Origin: Nocardioides insulae DSM 17944
Lineage (GTDB): Bacteria > Actinomycetota > Actinomycetes > Propionibacteriales > Nocardioidaceae
DNA length: 64,000 nt
NCBI RefSeq assembly: GCF_000422825.1
Contig: NZ_AUGU01000013.1
Location: forward strand, 682,001-746,000
Direction: 5' to 3'
Part shown: one piece after another, positions 37,783 to 48,063 of the stretch
Position numbering within the stretch: the first letter of the stretch is position 1
How the letters are laid out: each line of letters opens with the position of its first letter
Position numbers and translations under genes: made by a program
Notes under the pieces: model-generated
Told to the model about the DNA's origin: nothing
Databases searched by the model: none
What the model saw: only the letters and a program-made list of their open reading frames with translations

Positions 37783-38970
37783 TCAGGCGGGCGCGCGGTG
37801 GCGGACGAACTCGGCGAAGCCGGGGAGGGTGAAGCGGACCAGGCCGTGGCCGACCGGCTCGATCACGCCCTTCTCGATCAGGCTCTCGCGGGGGACGCTG
37901 AGGGCGCGCGAGTCGGTGCCGAGGCGGGCGGCGATGGCGGCACGGCCGACGTTGTCGTCGCCGAGGTCGGCCATCGCCCGGATGAAGCCGCGCTCCGCGG
38001 GCGAGGCGACGCCCCACCGGGCGCGGTACATCGCGTCCAGTTGGCTCTGGGCCGCCGGTACGCCGGCCCGGACGTGCTCGGCGGTCAGGATGTCGCCCGC
38101 CTCGGGGGACGCGGCCCGCCAGGTGGCGCTGCCGAGCAACTGGAGCAGATAGGGGTGGCCGCGACACTCGTCGGTGACGAGTTCGAGGGCGTCGGCGCTC
38201 CAACCGATCTCGAGCGTCTCGGCGGGCGCGGTCAACAGGGCGCGGGCATCCTCGTCACTGAGCAGGTCGAGGGCGGCGAAGTCGCTACGCTCGCCGAAGG
38301 TGGCGGCGCGGGTGATCGCCTCGGGGGTGACGGGCAGCCCGGCGGCGACGACGGCGACGGGATGCCGCTCGCGTTCGCCGGAGAGGTTCTGGATGGCGTT
38401 GAGCAGGACGCCGAGGTCGTCGGCCGAGGCCGCGTGCAGCTCATCGAGGAAGAGGATCAGTCCGGCACCGTGCTCGCCGCGTGCCAGGGTGGCGGCGTCG
38501 TGCAGCAGGTCCTCGAGGGCTCCGATGGGTGCCCGGTCCGGGGCCGGCGGCGGGGCATCCGGATCGAGCGCGATCTCCCCCTTCACCCTCACCCCGGGCG
38601 GGCCGACCTCGATGCTCACCCGGTCGAGCCGCTCCCGCCAGCGGCGCCGGACGGGTTCCTCGGCGACCACGCCGGCGGAGACGAGCGCGCGGTCGGTGGC
38701 ATGGGCCAGTTCGGGGAGGAAGGGGAGTTTGCGTGTGCACGCCACCCACGCGCACACGCACCCGACCGCGGCGGCCTGCTGTTGCGCCGTACGCAGCAGG
38801 GAGGTCTTGCCCACCCCGCGGGGGGCATGGAAGACCAGCAGCGGTCCGCCCATCTCTCCGAACGTCGCCACCCGGCTCACCCGGTCGCGGACGCGCTGGA
38901 GTTCGATCTCGCGACCGATCAGCACTCGCGGCACCTCGCCCGGAGTGTAGGGATCGGGGATGGGCGGCAT
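37783..38970 (-). CDS. AAA ATPase of ORC/STAND-like type, unknown role
   Basis: A 395-residue ATPase: an RGREIELQRVRDRV-type lead-in (IGREIELQRVR at about 18-28), Walker A HAPRGVGKTSLL (about 48-59), Walker B ILFLDELHA (about 173-181), sensor-like ERSDFAALDL, and a C-terminal winged-helix-like region. Such lone ORC1/Cdc6-like AAA proteins are common accessory genes in actinobacteria, some with transposition or defence partners, but no such partner is nearby; the next gene is an SDR. A strong GAGGAGG site precedes the ATG. The promoter carries a symmetric element that suggests tight control. Confidence 0.75.
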   Translation of the reverse strand: MPPIPDPYTPGEVPRVLIGREIELQRVRDRVSRVATFGEMGGPLLVFHAPRGVGKTSLLRTAQQQAAAVGCVCAWVACTRKLPFLPELAHATDRALVSAGVVAEEPVRRRWRERLDRVSIEVGPPGVRVKGEIALDPDAPPPAPDRAPIGALEDLLHDAATLARGEHGAGLILFLDELHAASADDLGVLLNAIQNLSGERERHPVAVVAAGLPVTPEAITRAATFGERSDFAALDLLSDEDARALLTAPAETLEIGWSADALELVTDECRGHPYLLQLLGSATWRAASPEAGDILTAEHVRAGVPAAQSQLDAMYRARWGVASPAERGFIRAMADLGDDNVGRAAIAARLGTDSRALSVPRESLIEKGVIEPVGHGLVRFTLPGFAEFVRHRAPA

Positions 38971-38980
38971 CCGACCTCCT

Positions 38981-39022
38981 CGAAATACTTCTTGATACCT
39001 CCCCGAAGTATAAGGAGGTATC
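38981..39022 (-). promoter_or_regulatory. Palindromic promoter/operator of the AAA ATPase gene
   Basis: A 9-base inverted repeat GATACCTCC (38994-39002) / GGAGGTATC (39014-39022) flanks a 11-base centre containing GAAGTATA; a second inverted match (AATACTTC at 38984-38991 against GAAGTAT at 39005-39011) is interleaved. Read on the minus strand the centre gives a TATACT -10-like box. Unusually AT-rich for this window. It is likely a repressor site over the promoter. Confidence 0.5.
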
Positions 39023-39095
39023 CGAGGGCGGTCGGGACTACGCGTGCGCGCGGCGGGTCACGTCGTGTTCATCGGCATCGGGTAGGTATGTCGCT

Positions 39096-40604
39096 ATGAG
39101 CAGCCACTCCGGACCGGAGGCGCGGTTCGCCCCCGGCCACCAGGCCCCGACACCGGACCTGCTCGCTCTGGAGGGGGTCCGGGAGACCCGCCTCCAGCCG
39201 CAGGTCGAACTGGTCGCCGACCACTACGACACCGCCGACAAGGTGCTGGCCCGGGCGGGAGTGACGCTGGAGCGCAGGGTCGGTGGGGACGACGAGGGAT
39301 GGCACGTCGAGGTCACCGCAACCCGGGGACGGCTGGAGACGAGGTGGCCGCTCGAGCGTTCCACCCACACCCCGCCGAAGCCGGCCAGAGACCTGGTGTC
39401 GGGCTGGACCCGCGGACACCCGTTGATACCGGTGGCCACCGTGACCGTCCACCGCACCGCCACCCTCCTCCTGGCCGAGAACGCCGCCGTCCTCGCGGAG
39501 TTCGCCGACGACCGGGTCACCGGCAACACACCGGACGGCGGGAGCGTGACCTGGCGGGAGTGGCGGATCACCCAGGTCGAGGGCGGCCACGACCTCCTCT
39601 CCGCAGCGGCCCACCACCTGGAGGGCAACGACGTCCCCCGCGCGACCACGACCCCGGTGCTCGCCCGCGCACTCGGGGACCGAGTGGAGGCCCGCCCGCA
39701 CCTGCCTCGCCCGAAGCCCGGGAAGCCCGCCTCCCGCCTGGTTCACGCGGGCCTCGCCGAACTGGTCGACACGCTGGCGCGGCTCGACGTCCAGGCTCGA
39801 CGTGGCACCGAGGAGGGCGTGCACGAGATGCGTGTCACCGTTCGCCGCCTCCGCGCCCTGCTGGCAGCCACCAGGAAGGTCCTCGACCGGGAGGCGACCG
39901 ACCCCGTGCGGGCCGAGCTGAGGTGGCTCGCGGGGGTCCTCGGGGAGGTCCGGGACGCCACCGTCGTCCACCAGCGGCTGCGGGCCCTGGTCGGGGAGGA
40001 ACCGCCTCGGCTGGTACACGGACCGGTCCTGCGACGGCTGGCGACGGCGTACCGGAGCCGTGGCCGCGCCGAGCTCGGCAGCGCCCTGGAATCGGCACGC
40101 TATTTCGCCCTACGGGACCGGCTCGACGCCCTCGTGGCGACACCCCCCTGGGCCGAGCACGCCGGCGATCCCGCGGGCAAGGTCGCGGCGAAGATGCTCC
40201 ACAGGGAGCTCGAGCGGGTTCGCGCCAGGGCCGAGAGCGCCGCTGCGCACGACGACGCCCCGGAGGCGCTTCACGAGCTCCGCAAGGCCGTCAAGCGTTT
40301 TCGGTACGTCGCCGAGGCGGTCGAACCGATCGGCGGGAAGCCCGTGCGCCGACTGGCCCGCCGAGCGCACGAGACGGCGACCCACCTGGGGGATCTGCAG
40401 GACACGGTGCTGACCAGGTCCGAACTGGTCCGCCTGGCCCGCGCGGCCGCGGCCGACGGCGAGCCCACCTTCACCTACGGGCGGCTGCACCACCGCGAGG
40501 AGCAGGCCCAAACAGACCTTCTCGACGCCCACTCGACCCGGGACACGATGCGGTCGCTGACCACTCGCACCGACAAGGCCGCCCACGCCCTGCGGCACCG
40601 GTAG
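39096..40604 (+). CDS. CYTH-CHAD domain protein (polyphosphate-related)
   Basis: A 502-residue protein: an N-terminal CYTH-like domain (about 30-210, HYDTADKVLARAGVTLERRVGG) and a C-terminal CHAD helical domain (about 225-490) with its conserved histidines in EGVHEMRVTVRRLRALLA and EALHELRKAVKRFRYV. CHAD binds inorganic polyphosphate, and CYTH enzymes act on triphosphates. The usual ExExK motif of CYTH is not visible at the N-terminus, so enzymatic activity may be lost while polyphosphate binding is retained. The ATG at 39096 was chosen at the start of the conserved region. It is divergent from the AAA ATPase. Confidence 0.85.
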   Translation: MSSHSGPEARFAPGHQAPTPDLLALEGVRETRLQPQVELVADHYDTADKVLARAGVTLERRVGGDDEGWHVEVTATRGRLETRWPLERSTHTPPKPARDLVSGWTRGHPLIPVATVTVHRTATLLLAENAAVLAEFADDRVTGNTPDGGSVTWREWRITQVEGGHDLLSAAAHHLEGNDVPRATTTPVLARALGDRVEARPHLPRPKPGKPASRLVHAGLAELVDTLARLDVQARRGTEEGVHEMRVTVRRLRALLAATRKVLDREATDPVRAELRWLAGVLGEVRDATVVHQRLRALVGEEPPRLVHGPVLRRLATAYRSRGRAELGSALESARYFALRDRLDALVATPPWAEHAGDPAGKVAAKMLHRELERVRARAESAAAHDDAPEALHELRKAVKRFRYVAEAVEPIGGKPVRRLARRAHETATHLGDLQDTVLTRSELVRLARAAAADGEPTFTYGRLHHREEQAQTDLLDAHSTRDTMRSLTTRTDKAAHALRHR

Positions 40605-40717
40605 GGCCACCGGGCCGGGAGGAACGGCGAGCCGACGGCACGCCGAGCCCGGTCGGCGGCTGACTCGACGGCCGCCCGCTTCGACCGGTGCGGGAAGGTC
40701 TCCTAGACTCGGTCGGC

Positions 40718-41650
40718 GTGACTGCCGCATGGGGCTTCGGCCTGACGACGTACGCCGCTGACAACACCGTCCTGGACGTGTGGTTCCCCGAGCCCGCGCT
40801 CGGCGAGAAGCCCGCCGAGGCCACCGCCCCGGCCGAGCTGACCACCCTCGAGAGCACCGATGAGGCCCGCCGGGTCCGGACCGTCGTCGAACTGGTCGAG
40901 GCCGATCTGGACTCCGCCCCGGCCACCACCCAGGACGTGTGGCTGCGCCTACACCTGCTCTCGCACCGTCTGGTCGCCCCCCACGGGCAGAACCTGGAGG
41001 GCGTCTTCGGCCTGCTCACCAACGTCGTGTGGACCTCGGCCGGCCCCTGCGCGGTGGCCGGCTTCGAGCTGACCCGAGCCCGACTGAAGGCCGAGGGCCG
41101 GCACGTCACCGTCTTCGGGATCGACAAGTTCCCCCGCCTGGTCGACTACGTGACCCCGGCCGGCGTACGCATCGCCGATGCCGACCGGGTCCGGCTCGGC
41201 GCCCACCTCGCCGAGGGCACCACCGTGATGCACGAGGGCTTCGTCAACTTCAACGCCGGCACCCTGGGCGCCTCGATGGTCGAGGGCCGGATCTCGGCCG
41301 GCGTGGTGGTGGGCGACGGCTCCGACGTCGGCGGCGGCGCCTCGATCATGGGCACCCTGTCCGGGGGTGGCAAGCAGGTGATCTCGATCGGCGAGCGCTG
41401 CCTGCTCGGAGCCAACGCCGGGATCGGCATCTCGCTCGGCGACGACTGCGTGGTCGAGGCCGGCTGCTACGTCACGGCCGGCACCCGGGTCACGGTACTC
41501 ACCGACGAGGCACCCCAGGTGGTCAAGGCCGCGCAGCTCTCCGGCGCATCCAACGTGCTCTTCCGCCGCAACTCCGTCTCCGGCGCGATCGAGGCGCTCG
41601 CCTGGAAGAGCGAGGGCGTCGCGCTCAACGCCGCCCTGCACGCCAACTGA
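40718..41650 (+). CDS. dapD: Tetrahydrodipicolinate N-succinyltransferase
   Basis: A 310-residue enzyme of the succinylase branch of diaminopimelate/lysine synthesis. The N-terminal part ([22 protein letters not shown]) is the actinobacterial form; the central part is a left-handed beta-helix of hexapeptide repeats (about 165-265), with the conserved [17 protein letters not shown] and [18 protein letters not shown]. The GTG at 40718 is the start. It is divergent in sense from dapE, which in mycobacteria is its direct neighbour but here lies 11.7 kb away. Confidence 0.93.
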
Positions 41651-41707: not shown

Positions 41708-42553
41708 ATGAAGCGACTCCTGGCTGCCGTCGTCCTCATCGGGGTGGTGGCCGCGGTGGCGGTGGCGGCCTGGCGCCAGCTGGGCGGGCAGCCGACGGTA
41801 CCGCGGTCACAGACCTGCACCGCCGTGGTCGGCGACCTCGCCGCCCGGCTGGACCTCGACCAGTCCGGGAACGCCGCCCTCATCGTGGCGCTGTCGGTAC
41901 GCCGCGGACTGCCCGCCCGGGCCGGCACGATCGCCCTGGCCACGGCGATGCAGGAGTCGAAGCTGTACAACATCGACTACGGCGACCGTGACTCGCTCGG
42001 GCTCTTCCAGCAGCGCCCATCGCAGGGCTGGGGCACCCCGGCGCAGGTGCGGGACCCGGTCCACGCCACCGAACGGTTCTACGACGGGCTGGTGACGGTC
42101 GGCGGCTACGAGTCGATGCCGATCACCGACGCGGCGCAGGCCGTGCAGCGCTCGGCCTATCCCGAGGCCTACGCCCAGCACGAGAGCGCCGCACGTGCGC
42201 TGGCCTCGGCGCTGAGCGGTCAGTCGCCGCGGGCGCTGACCTGCGAGCTCGACCCGCCGGCGGAGGGCCACCCGGCCGAGGTACGTCGGGATCTGGAGAC
42301 CGCCTTCGGGGCGACGATCGGCACGCCCGTCGTCCGCGGCCGCAGCGTCACGGCGGCGGTCGGCACGCCGGATCACGGCTGGGCGATGGCCCACTACTTG
42401 ATCGCCCGGGCCGAGCGGCTCGGGATCAGCCGGGTCGCCTATCACGGCTGGGCCTGGTCGGCGGCGGACTCCCCCGAGGGGTGGGTCCGCACCGAGGACA
42501 CCGTCCGCGGCCGGCTGAGCGCCACCGTGGCGGGGCCGGCGCCGAGCGCGTGA
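41708..42553 (+). CDS. Exported lysozyme-like protein, catalytic Glu kept
   Basis: A 281-residue protein anchored by one N-terminal helix (residues 5-22). Residues 36-180 form a lysozyme/transglycosylase-like domain: ALATAMQESKL (candidate catalytic Glu83) followed by DSLGLFQQRPSQGWG (95-109), bounded by Cys37 and Cys179, a likely disulfide. Residues 190-270 form a second domain resembling the C-terminal domain of the next gene, but without its metal ligands. Homologues are often mislabelled heavy metal transporter. It should act on peptidoglycan outside the membrane, but this is untested. It is followed 46 bases later by a paralogue. Confidence 0.7.
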   Translation: MKRLLAAVVLIGVVAAVAVAAWRQLGGQPTVPRSQTCTAVVGDLAARLDLDQSGNAALIVALSVRRGLPARAGTIALATAMQESKLYNIDYGDRDSLGLFQQRPSQGWGTPAQVRDPVHATERFYDGLVTVGGYESMPITDAAQAVQRSAYPEAYAQHESAARALASALSGQSPRALTCELDPPAEGHPAEVRRDLETAFGATIGTPVVRGRSVTAAVGTPDHGWAMAHYLIARAERLGISRVAYHGWAWSAADSPEGWVRTEDTVRGRLSATVAGPAPSA

Positions 42554-42599
42554 GAGCAGGCGATATCCACCCCTCGCCCTTGGAGACGCCCGGCAGGAT

Positions 42600-43493
42600 G
42601 TGGAGGTGAGCGCGCGTCCCGTGGTTGTGGTGGTCGCGGCGCTCGCCCTGGTCGCGGGACTGCTCGTGGGCGGCTTCCTGATCGTCCGCCAGCTGGACCC
42701 GACCGCGGATCGGACCTGCGAGGCCACCGTGGAGGATCACACCACCACGCTCGACCTCGAGGAGGGTGCGGGCGCCGGCCTGGTGGCAGCTGTCTCGGTC
42801 GGCGAGCGACTGCCGGCCCGGGCCGCCACGATCGCCCTCACCGTCGCACTCACCGACGAGGACCTCGCCGAGCTCCCCGGTGGCGCGCTCGCCTGGGCCC
42901 GGGACTTCTACCCGCGCCTGAGTGCGGTGCAGGGCTACCGGGAGCTCGACGTACCCGAGGCCGCGGCCGCGGTGACCGGTGACTCCCCCGACCGGTATGC
43001 CGACCAGGAGTCCGACGCGCGGGCGCTGGCCTCCGCGCTGACCGGCCAGTCGCCGGAGGCGTTCACCTGCGACACCCGCGCCGACTTCCCCGAGGCCAGC
43101 GACGAACTGAACGACAACGGCCTGGTCCCGCGTGCCCAGGCCGTGCTGGACGACGTCCAGGAGGTGATCGGCGACATCCCGGCGGGAGGGTTCGCCCCGG
43201 AGGGGGTGGCGACCGGCCACATCGAGGGGTCGGCCCACTACGAGGGCCGCGCCGTCGACCTGTTCTTCCGCCCGGTCACCCCGGCCAACCAGCGGCACGG
43301 CTGGGCGGTGGCGCACTACCTGGTCAGCCAGACCGAGCGTCTGAAGGTGGCGACGGTGATCTTCGACGACCGGATCTGGAGCAGCGGGTCCCGCTCCGGT
43401 CAGGGCTGGCGCGACTACGAGGCACCCGATGGTCCGGGCGATCGCGCCATCCTCGAGCATCGCGATCACGTGCACGTCGACGTGGCCGACTGA
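42600..43493 (+). CDS. Exported paralogue with LAS-type D-Ala peptidase motif
   Basis: A 297-residue paralogue of the preceding protein: N-terminal helix (7-30), lysozyme-like domain with Cys40 and Cys157, and a C-terminal domain from about 165. The lysozyme-like domain has lost the catalytic segment (TVALTDEDLAEL where its neighbour has ATAMQESKL). The C-terminal domain has the M15/LAS metallopeptidase pattern SxHxxGxAxD (S211-A-H213 to D220, GSAHYEGRAVDL) and HxH (H290, H292 in RDHVHVD). So it is probably a zinc D,D- or L,D-peptidase-like protein. Start is GTG at 42600; a GTG two codons in is possible. Confidence 0.7.
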   Translation: MEVSARPVVVVVAALALVAGLLVGGFLIVRQLDPTADRTCEATVEDHTTTLDLEEGAGAGLVAAVSVGERLPARAATIALTVALTDEDLAELPGGALAWARDFYPRLSAVQGYRELDVPEAAAAVTGDSPDRYADQESDARALASALTGQSPEAFTCDTRADFPEASDELNDNGLVPRAQAVLDDVQEVIGDIPAGGFAPEGVATGHIEGSAHYEGRAVDLFFRPVTPANQRHGWAVAHYLVSQTERLKVATVIFDDRIWSSGSRSGQGWRDYEAPDGPGDRAILEHRDHVHVDVAD

Positions 43494-43653: not shown

Positions 43654-44760
43654 TCAGGCGGTCAGCCGGGCGACGGCGGCGTCGATCCGCTCGTCGGTGG
43701 CGGTGAAGGCCACCCGCACGTGGTCGGAGCCGGCCGGCCCGTAGAAGTCGCCGGGGGCGACCAGGATGCCGAGCTCGGCCAGCCGGGCCACGGTGTCCCA
43801 GCAGTTCTCCCCGCGGGTGGACCACAGGTAGAGCGAAGCCTCGGAGTGGTCGATGCCGAACCCGGCGTGGACCAGGGCGTCGCGGAGCTTGGCCCGGCGG
43901 ACGGCGTACCGCGCGTGCTGCTCGTCGGCATGCTTGTCATCGGCCAGGGCCGCCGCCATCGCGTGCTGTTGCGGGCCGGGCAGCATCAGGCCGAGGTTCT
44001 TGCGCACGGCGAGCAGCTCGCCGATCACCGCCGGGTCACCCGCGACGAAGGCACACCGGTAGCCGGCCAGGTTGGAACGCTTGGAGAGCGAGTGCACCGC
44101 CAGGATGCCCTCGTGCGAGTCGCCGCACACGCTCGGGTGCAGAACCGAGACCGGCGAGTGGTCCTGCTCCCAGGAACACTCGATGTAGCACTCGTCGGAG
44201 ATCAGCAGGGTGCCGCGCTCACGGGCCCAGTCGACGACCTTCTTCAGGTGCTCGACCGGGAGGACCCGGCCGGTCGGGTTGGACGGGCTGTTGAGCCACA
44301 GGATCCGAGGCACCTCCGGACCGACCGCGGTGAGGCTGTCGGTGGCCAGGGCACGGGCCCCCGCCAGCGCCGCGCCCACCTCGTAGGTCGGGTAGGCCAG
44401 TTCGGGGTAGACGATCAGGTCGCCGGCACCGACGCCCAGATGGGTCGGCAGCGAGGCGATCAGCTCCTTCGAACCAACCACCGGGAGCACCGCGTCGGCC
44501 CCGAGGCCGGTGACGCCGTGCCGCCGGGCCAGCCAGTCGACCGCCGCCTGCCGCACCCCCGGGATCCCGACCGTGGTCGGGTAGCCCGGTGAGTCGGCGG
44601 CCTCCCGGAGGGCGACCTGGGCCACCTCCGGGGTGCCGTCGACGGGGGTGCCGACGGAGAGGTCGACGATCCCGTCAGGGTGCCGACGCGCCGTGGCGGC
44701 GTACGCCGTCAACTTGTCCCATGGGAAGTCGGGCAGACGGCTGGAGACTGGTCCTGGCAT
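43654..44760 (-). CDS. dapC: Succinyldiaminopimelate aminotransferase
   Basis: A 368-residue PLP-dependent class I aminotransferase of the actinobacterial DapC type. The PLP lysine is in HSLSKRSNLAGYR (about 228-240), with SNPTGRVLP and the C-terminal Arg (VRVAFT) for the substrate carboxylate. It converts N-succinyl-2-amino-6-oxopimelate with glutamate, between DapD and DapE steps. It follows fdxA by eight bases on the same strand, an arrangement shared with mycobacteria (fdxC-dapC, from memory). It converges with the hydrolase-like gene across a 160-base gap rich in imperfect inverted repeats, possibly a terminator. Confidence 0.92.
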   Translation of the reverse strand: MPGPVSSRLPDFPWDKLTAYAATARRHPDGIVDLSVGTPVDGTPEVAQVALREAADSPGYPTTVGIPGVRQAAVDWLARRHGVTGLGADAVLPVVGSKELIASLPTHLGVGAGDLIVYPELAYPTYEVGAALAGARALATDSLTAVGPEVPRILWLNSPSNPTGRVLPVEHLKKVVDWARERGTLLISDECYIECSWEQDHSPVSVLHPSVCGDSHEGILAVHSLSKRSNLAGYRCAFVAGDPAVIGELLAVRKNLGLMLPGPQQHAMAAALADDKHADEQHARYAVRRAKLRDALVHAGFGIDHSEASLYLWSTRGENCWDTVARLAELGILVAPGDFYGPAGSDHVRVAFTATDERIDAAVARLTA

Positions 44761-46209: not shown

Positions 46210-48063
46210 TCAGCCGGTGGCCGGCCGCCCGGCACCGGCCTGCTGACCGGGCTGACGTGGCTGCTGCGGCTGCGCCGGCGGCTTCGGGGTGGTGCGACAC
46301 TCCACACTGTCGGAGGCGGTGTAGGCGGTGTGGAAGACCTCCCGATCCACCACCGCGTCAGAGCCCGGTTTGCGGAAGACCCGGGTGACATCGATGTCGA
46401 ATCCGCTCCAGCCGGTGTGCGGCTCGCAGGCCGGATCGTCCCAGATCACGCGGGTGGCCGGGGAGCGGTAGTTGTAACGCTCACCGGTGACCGACTCGAT
46501 GTCCCAGGTCTTGGTTGAGTAGAGCGACACCGTGACCGCTCCCTCCCGGGAGTAGGTCGAGGGGACCACCTCGGTGTCCACCAGGACGCCGTGGTCGGTG
46601 TTGTTCTTGAAGCGCAGGTCGAGGGCGCCCCACACCACCGTCGCCTCCCGACCGACCGGGTAACGATCGATGTAGAAGGAGTGCGGCTTGTGCTCGACGT
46701 CCTCGAGGCCGGCGAAGAACATCGCGTTGAACAGGGTGGTCGCCATCTGGGAGACACCACCGCCGAGATCCTGCTTGAGCACACCGTCGCTGATGACGTA
46801 GCCGGCCGTGAAACCGTTGTCGAGGGTGCGCTCGCCGACGATGTCGTTCATCGAGAAGGTCTCGCCCGGCTGGAGCACCGTGCCGTCGACGAGCTCGGCC
46901 GCCCGACCGATGTTGACGTTGCGATACTCGGCATGGGGGTAATGGGTGGTGAACGTCGAGACCCGGCGGTTGATCCCCAGCTTGCGGGCCTCGGCGGTGG
47001 TGACGTCGGGCTCGGCCACGGTGCTGGGCACCTTCATCCGGCGCTGGCCCTCCGGCTTGACCACCAGGGCGAGGAAGGACTCCTCGATGTCGGCAGGGCT
47101 GTAGGTCACGCCCGGCTTCGCGGGGACGACCTTCGGCTTGCCGTCGACCAGTCGGACCGTGGCGTCCACGGCCTGGGAGGCGTCGCCGGAGACCGCGTCG
47201 TCCACCAGCTTGCGCAGCCGCTCCGATCGCAGGGTGGGCACGAGTGCGCCGTCCTCGGCTGTCATCGCGAGCGCCGCGGAGTAGTCGGCGGGGCTCAGCG
47301 TGACCGGAGACTTGCCGAACACGAGGGTGACCGGTGCGGTCATCGCAGGGTTGGCGAAGGTACGACGCGCCTCGTCCACGTCGGCCGCATCGATGTCGGG
47401 CGCCACCTCGTGCTGCTCGACCTCGACCGTGCGCTCCTCGCCCTCGGCGAGGTAGCCGCCCACCAGGGCGTCACGCAGTTGCTCGGTCTCGACCCCCCGG
47501 CCCAGCTCGGGCTCGGTGGTCACCACCCCGCGGGAGGTGAAGGTGATCGAACCGTCGACGGGCGCCGTCCCGGCCTGCTTCTCCACCTTGGCGGCGATCG
47601 CGTCGAGGGCGCCCTGATCGACGCTGACCACGGCCTCCACGCCGGTGCCTCCGGTGTAGTGCTCCCACAACCGGCGCGGATCCCAGCTGTGCTCACCGCC
47701 GGCCTGGGCGACGGTCGCGGCGTAGTCGATCTGCAGGCCCGCCTCGGCGGGATCGACGACCACCCGGCGCTCGCCGACCACGATGGTCACCGGCTGCTCC
47801 AGCCGATCACCGAGCTCGCTCTCGAGGGTCTTCTCCGCCTGGGCGGAGGTCTGGTCGCCGATGTCGACACCTGCCACCTCGGTGCCGTGCGGCAGCTCGT
47901 CACCGGCGAGGTAGTAGGCCGCCGCCCAGCCGCCACCGACCAGGACGGCGAGCGCGACCACGACAGCGATCACGGTCCACCCGCCGGCGCGCTCCTTGCG
48001 CACAGGGGCGTCGCTCGGCTCGGGGCTGGACCCGGGAGGGGTGCCGGGTGTCGACTTGCTCAC
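46210..48063 (-). CDS. VanW-family exported protein with PG-binding-4 domains
   Basis: A 617-residue protein: cytoplasmic Pro-rich N-terminus, one membrane helix (about 29-50), two tandem PG_binding_4-like/YoaR regions (about 60-310), and a VanW domain (about 390-520; YPHAEYRNVNIGRAAELVDG, LQPGETFSMND, GGGVSQMATTLFNAMFF), ending in a Pro/Gln-rich tail. VanW proteins are linked to glycopeptide-resistance clusters but their role is unresolved; a cell-wall attachment or L,D-linkage function is plausible. It converges with the GNAT gene. Confidence 0.9.
   Translation of the reverse strand: MSKSTPGTPPGSSPEPSDAPVRKERAGGWTVIAVVVALAVLVGGGWAAAYYLAGDELPHGTEVAGVDIGDQTSAQAEKTLESELGDRLEQPVTIVVGERRVVVDPAEAGLQIDYAATVAQAGGEHSWDPRRLWEHYTGGTGVEAVVSVDQGALDAIAAKVEKQAGTAPVDGSITFTSRGVVTTEPELGRGVETEQLRDALVGGYLAEGEERTVEVEQHEVAPDIDAADVDEARRTFANPAMTAPVTLVFGKSPVTLSPADYSAALAMTAEDGALVPTLRSERLRKLVDDAVSGDASQAVDATVRLVDGKPKVVPAKPGVTYSPADIEESFLALVVKPEGQRRMKVPSTVAEPDVTTAEARKLGINRRVSTFTTHYPHAEYRNVNIGRAAELVDGTVLQPGETFSMNDIVGERTLDNGFTAGYVISDGVLKQDLGGGVSQMATTLFNAMFFAGLEDVEHKPHSFYIDRYPVGREATVVWGALDLRFKNNTDHGVLVDTEVVPSTYSREGAVTVSLYSTKTWDIESVTGERYNYRSPATRVIWDDPACEPHTGWSGFDIDVTRVFRKPGSDAVVDREVFHTAYTASDSVECRTTPKPPAQPQQPRQPGQQAGAGRPATG

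Follow-up and report, generated by a model that had tools for sequence, protein, structure and literature searches.

A tandem gene pair of Nocardioides insulae that probably divides a membrane-anchored peptidoglycan hydrolase

How do two neighbouring genes come to hold one hydrolase site each, and what becomes of the domains that have lost theirs? The question is raised by a stretch of 64,000 nucleotides from Nocardioides insulae DSM 17944 (NCBI RefSeq assembly GCF_000422825.1, contig NZ_AUGU01000013.1, positions 682,001 to 746,000 of the forward strand), hereafter the window, in which positions are counted from the first letter. Two open reading frames (ORFs) of the + strand, separated by 46 bases, encode predicted membrane-anchored proteins of the same layout: gene 1 (41708..42553, 281 amino acids), with a live-looking GH184 muramidase domain and a dead LAS peptidase domain, and gene 2 (42600..43493, 297 amino acids from a putative GTG start), with a dead GH184 domain and a live-looking LAS domain. 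We consider it quite probable that the two genes are the divided parts of a membrane-anchored peptidoglycan hydrolase, split in one lineage from the two-site gene that is usual in the genus. Both the complementary loss in the two copies and an unduplicated two-site relative are observed at the level of sequence.

Active sites kept and lost in the two proteins

An earlier note on this DNA had described the two products as adjacent, exported paralogues of shared layout, and the comparison bears this out: the proteins align over most of their length (34% identity, E 6e-29), and each begins with a hydrophobic segment and carries the two cysteines that bound domain 1, neither of which is missing from any of the 230 distinct rows compared. 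The residues singled out in that note (E83 in protein 1; S211, H213, D220, H290 and H292 in protein 2) were also found at these positions of the translations.

The first domain of protein 1, from C37 to C179 (41816..42244, + strand), is predicted to be a GH184 muramidase by profile match, by fold and by the position of its catalytic glutamate. Searched as a single sequence, protein 1 matches the fungal GH184 muramidases 8b2h (E 4.9e-8) and 8b2e (E 2.7e-6); the profile of 57 relatives matches them far better (hmmsearch; 8b2e, KsGH184, E 5.3e-17; 8b2h, E 5.4e-16), and Foldseek retrieves 8b2e at E 3.9e-6. The AlphaFold (AF2) model, poor at the N-terminal segment only (mean predicted local distance difference test score, pLDDT, 93.6; predicted template modelling score, pTM, 0.86), superposes on 8b2e with a VIA-align Z of 21.5 over 126 residues at 1.2 Å. 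In the profile alignment, Glu83 (41954..41956, + strand) stands opposite the catalytic Glu41 of KsGH184, numbered by counting along the printed alignment, and the E41A mutant of that enzyme is inactive (PMC10394673). The lysozyme-like domain of the earlier note thus becomes a GH184 domain, with its glutamate at the active-site position as proposed. Around it, the muramidase-site loop D93-R103 (DRDSLGLFQQR, 41984..42016, + strand) is strongly conserved: D95, S96, F100 and R103 occur in 216 of 216 rows with the muramidase glutamate and D93 in 214 of them, Glu83 being the criterion by which these rows were selected, so that its own invariance is by construction. Bacterial members of GH184 exist (PMC10394673). 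Searches of Pfam and NCBIfam with both proteins and with the aligned families returned weak matches only (best E 0.015).

Protein 2 appears to have kept this fold and lost its site. Its dead GH184 domain (residues 39-149; 42714..43046, + strand) superposes in the predicted model on 8b2h (Z 14.7, 104 residues, 1.5 Å), and the profile of 35 protein 2 relatives also matches GH184 in its first domain; the model is again poor at the N-terminal segment only (AF2, mean pLDDT 89.7, pTM 0.85). In the alignment, an aspartate occupies the position of the catalytic glutamate and the active-site loop is deleted, so that the loss of the Glu region is as had been claimed, the GH184 fold being kept nonetheless. 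The deletion of the core segment (alignment positions 95-103) is common to all 11 second-type rows. The structure alignments used here (57 and 35 rows) consist of the window protein and the proteins of loci L081-L160.

The reverse is seen in the second domains. That of protein 2 (residues 172-297; 43113..43490, + strand) superposes on the zinc peptidase VldE (9fln) with a Z of 15.3 over 111 residues at 1.9 Å in the predicted model, and the profile of the 35 relatives matches the MT3 domain of VldE (9flh) at E 2e-5 (hmmsearch); protein 2 alone matched no sequence of the PDB. The zinc ligands of VldE are H301, D308 and H375, and activity in zymograms was lost when any of them, or H370, D372 or H373, was replaced by alanine (PMC11667670). 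All six have counterparts in protein 2 in the profile alignment: the predicted zinc ligands H213 (43236-43238), D220 (43257-43259) and H292, and, in order, H287, D289 and H290, the last four lying in the motif HRDHVH (43458..43475; all on the + strand). The equivalents of H287 and H290, which were not used for sorting the rows, occur in two-site (134), second-type (11) and intermediate (3) rows. Further structural matches are weaker (Hedgehog, at most 7.9; the Streptomyces albus G DD-peptidase 1lbu, Z 6.8; MepA, 6.2), the VIA-align lists being re-ranked Foldseek matches from which the absence of a family excludes nothing. Of the M15/LAS D-Ala peptidase proposed in the earlier note, the LAS part stands and the D-Ala/M15 part is less likely: the domain is predicted, from profile and model, to be closest to VldE, a LAS/MT3 enzyme that acts on crosslinked stems and there cleaves the L-Ala|D-Glu bond of the acceptor strand (PMC11667670). 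As for protein 1, its C-terminal domain (residues 186-276; 42263..42535, + strand), described before as devoid of metal ligands, is a decayed LAS domain whose predicted fold is kept (9flh, Z 11.9, 89 residues, 2.4 Å), with no zinc ligand retained in the alignment and the active-site loops gone. In both models, the 'other' domain of each protein looks like a folded remnant.

Ratios of nonsynonymous to synonymous substitution rates (dN/dS) were computed with our own Nei-Gojobori script across 28 comparisons among eight related pair genomes. In protein 1, the median was 0.053 for the live GH184 domain and 0.289 for the dead LAS domain; in protein 2, it was 0.335 for the dead GH184 domain and 0.283 for the live LAS domain. 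No single value exceeded 0.657, and the maxima for the live LAS and dead GH184 domains of protein 2 were 0.506 and 0.586. This indicates purifying selection on the dead domains in this one group of eight genomes, and a part in structure, substrate binding or docking is therefore probable for them.

The undivided form and its distribution

The two-site relative is the common form in the genus. Among 196 Nocardioides genomes, 194 match the family at E 1e-10 or better, and the locus was read in 145 of the 196, those without a full-length two-site match being taken first, so that the resulting proportion understates the two-site form. A single two-site gene was found in 111 of the 145, a two-site gene beside a Glu-to-Gln copy with an intact peptidase site in 3, the split pair in 11 and a muramidase-type protein alone in 17. 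Three cases are special: G086 (a change of Asp to Glu only), G091 (a contig end cuts the gene) and G139 (broken into frames); 19 genomes were scored as lacking both a peptidase site and a second copy, and the 17 are obtained by not counting G086 and G091 as losses. As to the 51 unread genomes, 49 have a best E of 2.2e-142 or lower, and the incomplete G149 and G173 show no match at the first threshold and a weak C-terminal one at 1e-5. In the 134 distinct two-site rows, D93, D95, S96, F100, R103, H229, S233, R239, H307 and H310 are invariant; E83, Q101, Q102, H235, D242, D309 and H312 are too, by construction, as they are the sorting residues. The division of a glycan-plus-peptide hydrolase, as first suggested for this locus, gains support from this undivided form with both sites conserved. 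Wherever the pair occurs in the genus its genes are adjacent (11 of 11 genomes; 7 in tandem, 4 tail to tail).

In the class, a match to the profile at E 1e-25 was obtained for 77 of 148 genomes, over nearly its full length in 70 and in the GH184 part only in 7. The best 80 of 578 confirmed loci, ranked by likeness to first copies and hence favouring the muramidase-only form (loci L241-L251 were outside the scoring), comprise 28 two-site loci (Nocardioidaceae 21, Kribbellaceae 2, Jiangellaceae 2, Sporichthyaceae 1, no family 2), 51 with the muramidase site only (Streptomycetaceae 19, several families of Micrococcales, others) and one with a pair, that of Nocardioides luteus. A dapD match accompanies 57 of these 80 loci; none of the 19 Streptomycetaceae has one, and 18 of them have a dapC match instead.

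Three loci carry a different arrangement. In L007, L016 and L178 (genomes G036, G018 and G136), the paralogue beside the two-site gene shows Glu changed to Gln and FQQR to FRQS, with the peptidase site intact, and these copies group apart (support 99/98, the latter starred). Here the same process is seen in a partial state, as a case distinct from the pair in the window. The special case G086 (L229) encodes a two-site protein in which the aspartate at alignment position 309 is a glutamate, and in G125 (C1:496559-498142, L251) a frame of 1049 amino acids with GH184-like and LAS-like segments suggests a much larger two-domain protein.

From these data, the following scheme can be proposed. The undivided form would be one exported protein with two cutting domains: a GH184 muramidase domain for the glycan between N-acetylmuramic acid and N-acetylglucosamine (MurNAc-GlcNAc), and an MT3/VldE-type zinc LAS domain for a bond of the stem peptide, presumed by analogy to be L-Ala|D-Glu, the two activities and the exact bonds being those that we infer. 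A duplication of this gene in place, between dapD and dapC, would have followed in one Nocardioides lineage, presumably once. The muramidase site would then have been retained by copy 1, whose peptidase domain was stripped of its metal ligands and loops, and the peptidase site by copy 2, whose muramidase domain lost its active-site segment, each copy still folding as both domains, with dead domains that probably retain a structural, substrate-binding or docking role. Adjacency and selection fit such a retained structural or binding role, and contact between the two proteins is putative. Obligatory action as a pair, which had been suggested as possible, is not supported, the muramidase-type protein often occurring without a partner. 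A bolder version, which we put forward as rather unlikely, is a hetero-oligomer of reciprocal pseudoenzymes, in which each dead domain would dock the live domain of its partner or bind substrate, rebuilding a glycan-plus-peptide cutter across two chains; in that case, the dead LAS domain that many GH184 proteins of actinomycetes carry would represent a so far unrecognised module of general use, for regulation or for the binding of stem peptides.

Multifunctional genes can be divided after duplication by degeneration and complementation, that is by subfunctionalisation. The present pair resembles this concept in the complementary losses of its two copies and in the two-function relative found in sister lineages; it differs from it in that each copy keeps a folded, selected remnant and in that the peptidase copy has seemingly been lost again in some descendants. 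The genus offers a series found in nature, of two-site genes alone or beside a Glu-to-Gln copy, split pairs and lone muramidases, in which the division of an enzyme with two active sites can be watched, the undivided form being at hand for comparison. The family is also a common actinomycete cell-wall hydrolase, often beside genes of diaminopimelate (DAP) biosynthesis, for which there is no convincing Pfam or NCBIfam model, and the dead peptidase domain retained in many of its members has a role that is directly testable.

One duplication or several, and the nature of the peptidase

The simplest reading of the history is one tandem duplication with complementary loss, after which part of the descendants lost the peptidase copy. 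A single duplication is compatible with the trees, which sampled distinct rows (46 of 148 for the careful peptidase tree, 60 of 143 for the muramidase test tree) and, for the species proxy, 86 of 141 genomes. Holding the second copies as one clade gave a p of 0.53 in the approximately unbiased (AU) test, the held tree being 0.59 log units better, and holding the first copies of the wider group as one clade gave an AU p of 0.455 (the 17-row group of the muramidase test tree was named after the dapD tree had been seen). In the dapD+dapC tree of 86 genomes, a clade of 14, starred at 97, unites 10 pair genomes with 4 muramidase-only ones and contains none of the 55 placed two-site genomes; G088 and G214, which the tree of dapD alone groups with the pair genomes, fall outside it here. 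In other parts of this tree, too, the peptidase site changed state with no duplicate surviving: its starred branches require at least four changes of the muramidase-only label, gain and loss not being distinguished.

Several observations weigh against this reading or against parts of the proposal. The second copies separate into two groups in trees of the peptidase domain, the window's genome (G000) with G031 and G127 on one side and eight N. luteus-like genomes on the other, both sitting among Nocardioides two-site rows, and they were united in 0 of 200 bootstrap trees; in the free tree, the first copies of the eight genomes stand weakly with Intrasporangiaceae (support 81-83). In the dapD+dapC tree, the window's genome lies at a fork with the pair clade and a mostly two-site group of 31 genomes, in a branching order that is not settled. 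Moreover, dapC is missing from 44 of the 86 rows of that tree, including the row of a pair genome, and both of its genes are linked to the locus, so that it is no independent species tree. The 17 lone muramidase-type proteins of the genus show that a partner is not obligatory, and 51 of the best 80 loci, in a ranking that favours this form, are muramidase-only. Finally, the S291/R294 pair of VldE, of a kind that VanXYg also requires, is not kept: in all 148 rows with ligands, the serine is replaced by a glycine and the arginine by A, E, Q, D or S. A His (alignment position 229) and an Arg (239) are invariant, and the substrate can therefore not be transferred confidently from VldE.

The main competitor of a single duplication is that the pair had at least two origins, either independently in the eight N. 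luteus-like genomes and in the group of the window's genome, or with copy 1 as an old or imported GH184-only gene and copy 2 as a later offshoot of a two-site gene. We hold this to be somewhat unlikely, its weight being raised by the bootstrap result and by the unsettled place of the window's genome. It would account for the two groups of second copies and for the Intrasporangiaceae affinity of the eight first copies, and it is favoured by the frequency of GH184-only forms in other actinomycetes (with the ranking in mind) and by the fact that a neighbouring copy lost its muramidase site at least one more time, in G018, G036 and G136. However, the AU tests do not reject a single origin, the identical core segment is deleted in every second copy, and 10 of the 11 pair genomes fall in one starred clade without any placed two-site genome. 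It may also be asked whether copy 2, or the dead domains, are merely decaying, as a redundant duplicate heading for loss and with no division of labour. Four genomes within the pair clade (G006, G027, G070 and G081) indeed show no second copy in a search of the whole genome, and the live GH184 domain is far more conserved than all other domains. Yet the catalytic residues of the peptidase that were not used for sorting (equivalents of H307 and H310) are intact in 11 of 11 second copies, the dN/dS values of both domains of protein 2 stay low, even at their highest, and adjacency is retained in both gene orientations, so that we regard simple decay as quite improbable.

The preferred history could also be right with another chemistry. 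The peptidase domain might be an M15-type D-Ala-D-Ala carboxypeptidase or DD-endopeptidase rather than an L-Ala|D-Glu endopeptidase: its SxHxxGxAxD form is one that we take to be M15-like, and 1lbu can be aligned with it. Also in its favour, HxH is a canonical motif of LAS metallopeptidases, and the active site of VldE has itself been described as consistent with M15 (PMC11667670). VldE is, however, much closer in structure and in sequence, and no Pfam M15 model is among the 13 families matched by the 35 protein 2 relatives at E up to 1, a search that remote homology may escape; an M15-type specificity is thus unlikely in our view. We give still less credit to a C-terminal domain that would be a zinc-binding or storage module and no enzyme, which appears very improbable. 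The latent form of VldE holds up to four zinc ions (PMC11667670), and the Ser/Arg pair of VldE is absent here; against this, the six residues essential in VldE are all present, alongside a muramidase domain. Such a module would also explain 'heavy metal' labels, if these exist: the statement that homologues are commonly labelled heavy metal transporters could not be confirmed, as no such label occurs in the 50 records listed among 839 matching phage and plasmid records, and nothing relevant was found in the open-licence PMC literature.

Related systems, phage matches and neighbouring genes

The closest characterised relatives each correspond to one half of the proposed enzyme. The GH184 muramidases KsGH184 and TtGH184 resemble domain 1 of protein 1 in profile, fold and catalytic Glu position; the characterised members are fungal and stand alone or carry an SH3-like domain, and the excerpts of their description mention neither a LAS domain nor a split pair (PMC10394673). 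VldE (Spr1875) of Streptococcus pneumoniae, a LAS/MT3 L,D-endopeptidase like the C-terminal domain of protein 2 in fold and in its six essential residues, consists of LysM and MT3 parts without a muramidase domain (PMC11667670), and the family described here differs from it in the replaced S291/R294 and the extra invariant His at position 229. The MT3 motif is also known from the tape measure protein of mycobacteriophage TM4 and from the host proteins MSMEG3721 and MSMEG0642, which clear peptidoglycan in zymograms (PMC1796659); these belong to the same motif class by the assignment made for VldE rather than by direct sequence comparison, and they are parts of a phage tail or separate exported host proteins, whereas those of the window are a paralogous pair at a dapD locus. 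The two-site architecture has already been noticed in passing in the literature; within open-licence PMC literature, no paper was found on the split pair or this locus, and nothing specific on a two-site enzyme.

The two-site protein further matches 447 phage and 392 plasmid records. Among the 25 phage matches listed, 2 are unannotated and 23 are Streptomyces phage tape measure proteins that match the GH184 part; the other phage matches include 195 Mycobacterium and 93 Gordonia phages, for which the listing does not give the matched part. The listed plasmid proteins are annotated as NlpC/P60, CHAP, M23 or hypothetical, or have no listed feature; GH184 domains are present in those labelled NlpC/P60, CHAP or M23, and a muramidase is named in none of the 50 annotations listed for the two kinds of record. 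In PHROGs, protein 1 matches tape measure and endolysin families (best E 3e-44) and protein 2 matches no family.

We discarded the idea that the locus is one broken two-site gene, since each protein has both folds and an N-terminal hydrophobic segment of its own. Two antisense ORFs (41807-42727 and 42426-43475) were set aside without a separate search as likely artefacts of high GC content, because the homology found sits on the + strand. Elsewhere in the window's genome, the LAS part of the profile matches two close frames outside the window (C2:525614-525835 and C2:526722-527057; E 4.4e-11 and 1.3e-10).

Upstream of the pair lies dapD, for a tetrahydrodipicolinate N-succinyltransferase (40688..41650, + strand; Pfam THDPS_M, E 8.7e-21), and convergent with it an aminotransferase gene (43654..44760, - strand; Pfam Aminotran_1_2, E 1.7e-43) that we infer to be dapC and that is close to the locus in many relatives. 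A further gene convergent with the pair is ferredoxin-like, this name and that of dapC being in part our assumption. A CHAD-domain protein is encoded further upstream (38481-40604, + strand), and a VanW/PG_binding_4 protein downstream (46210-48063, - strand) is perhaps a further cell-wall gene.

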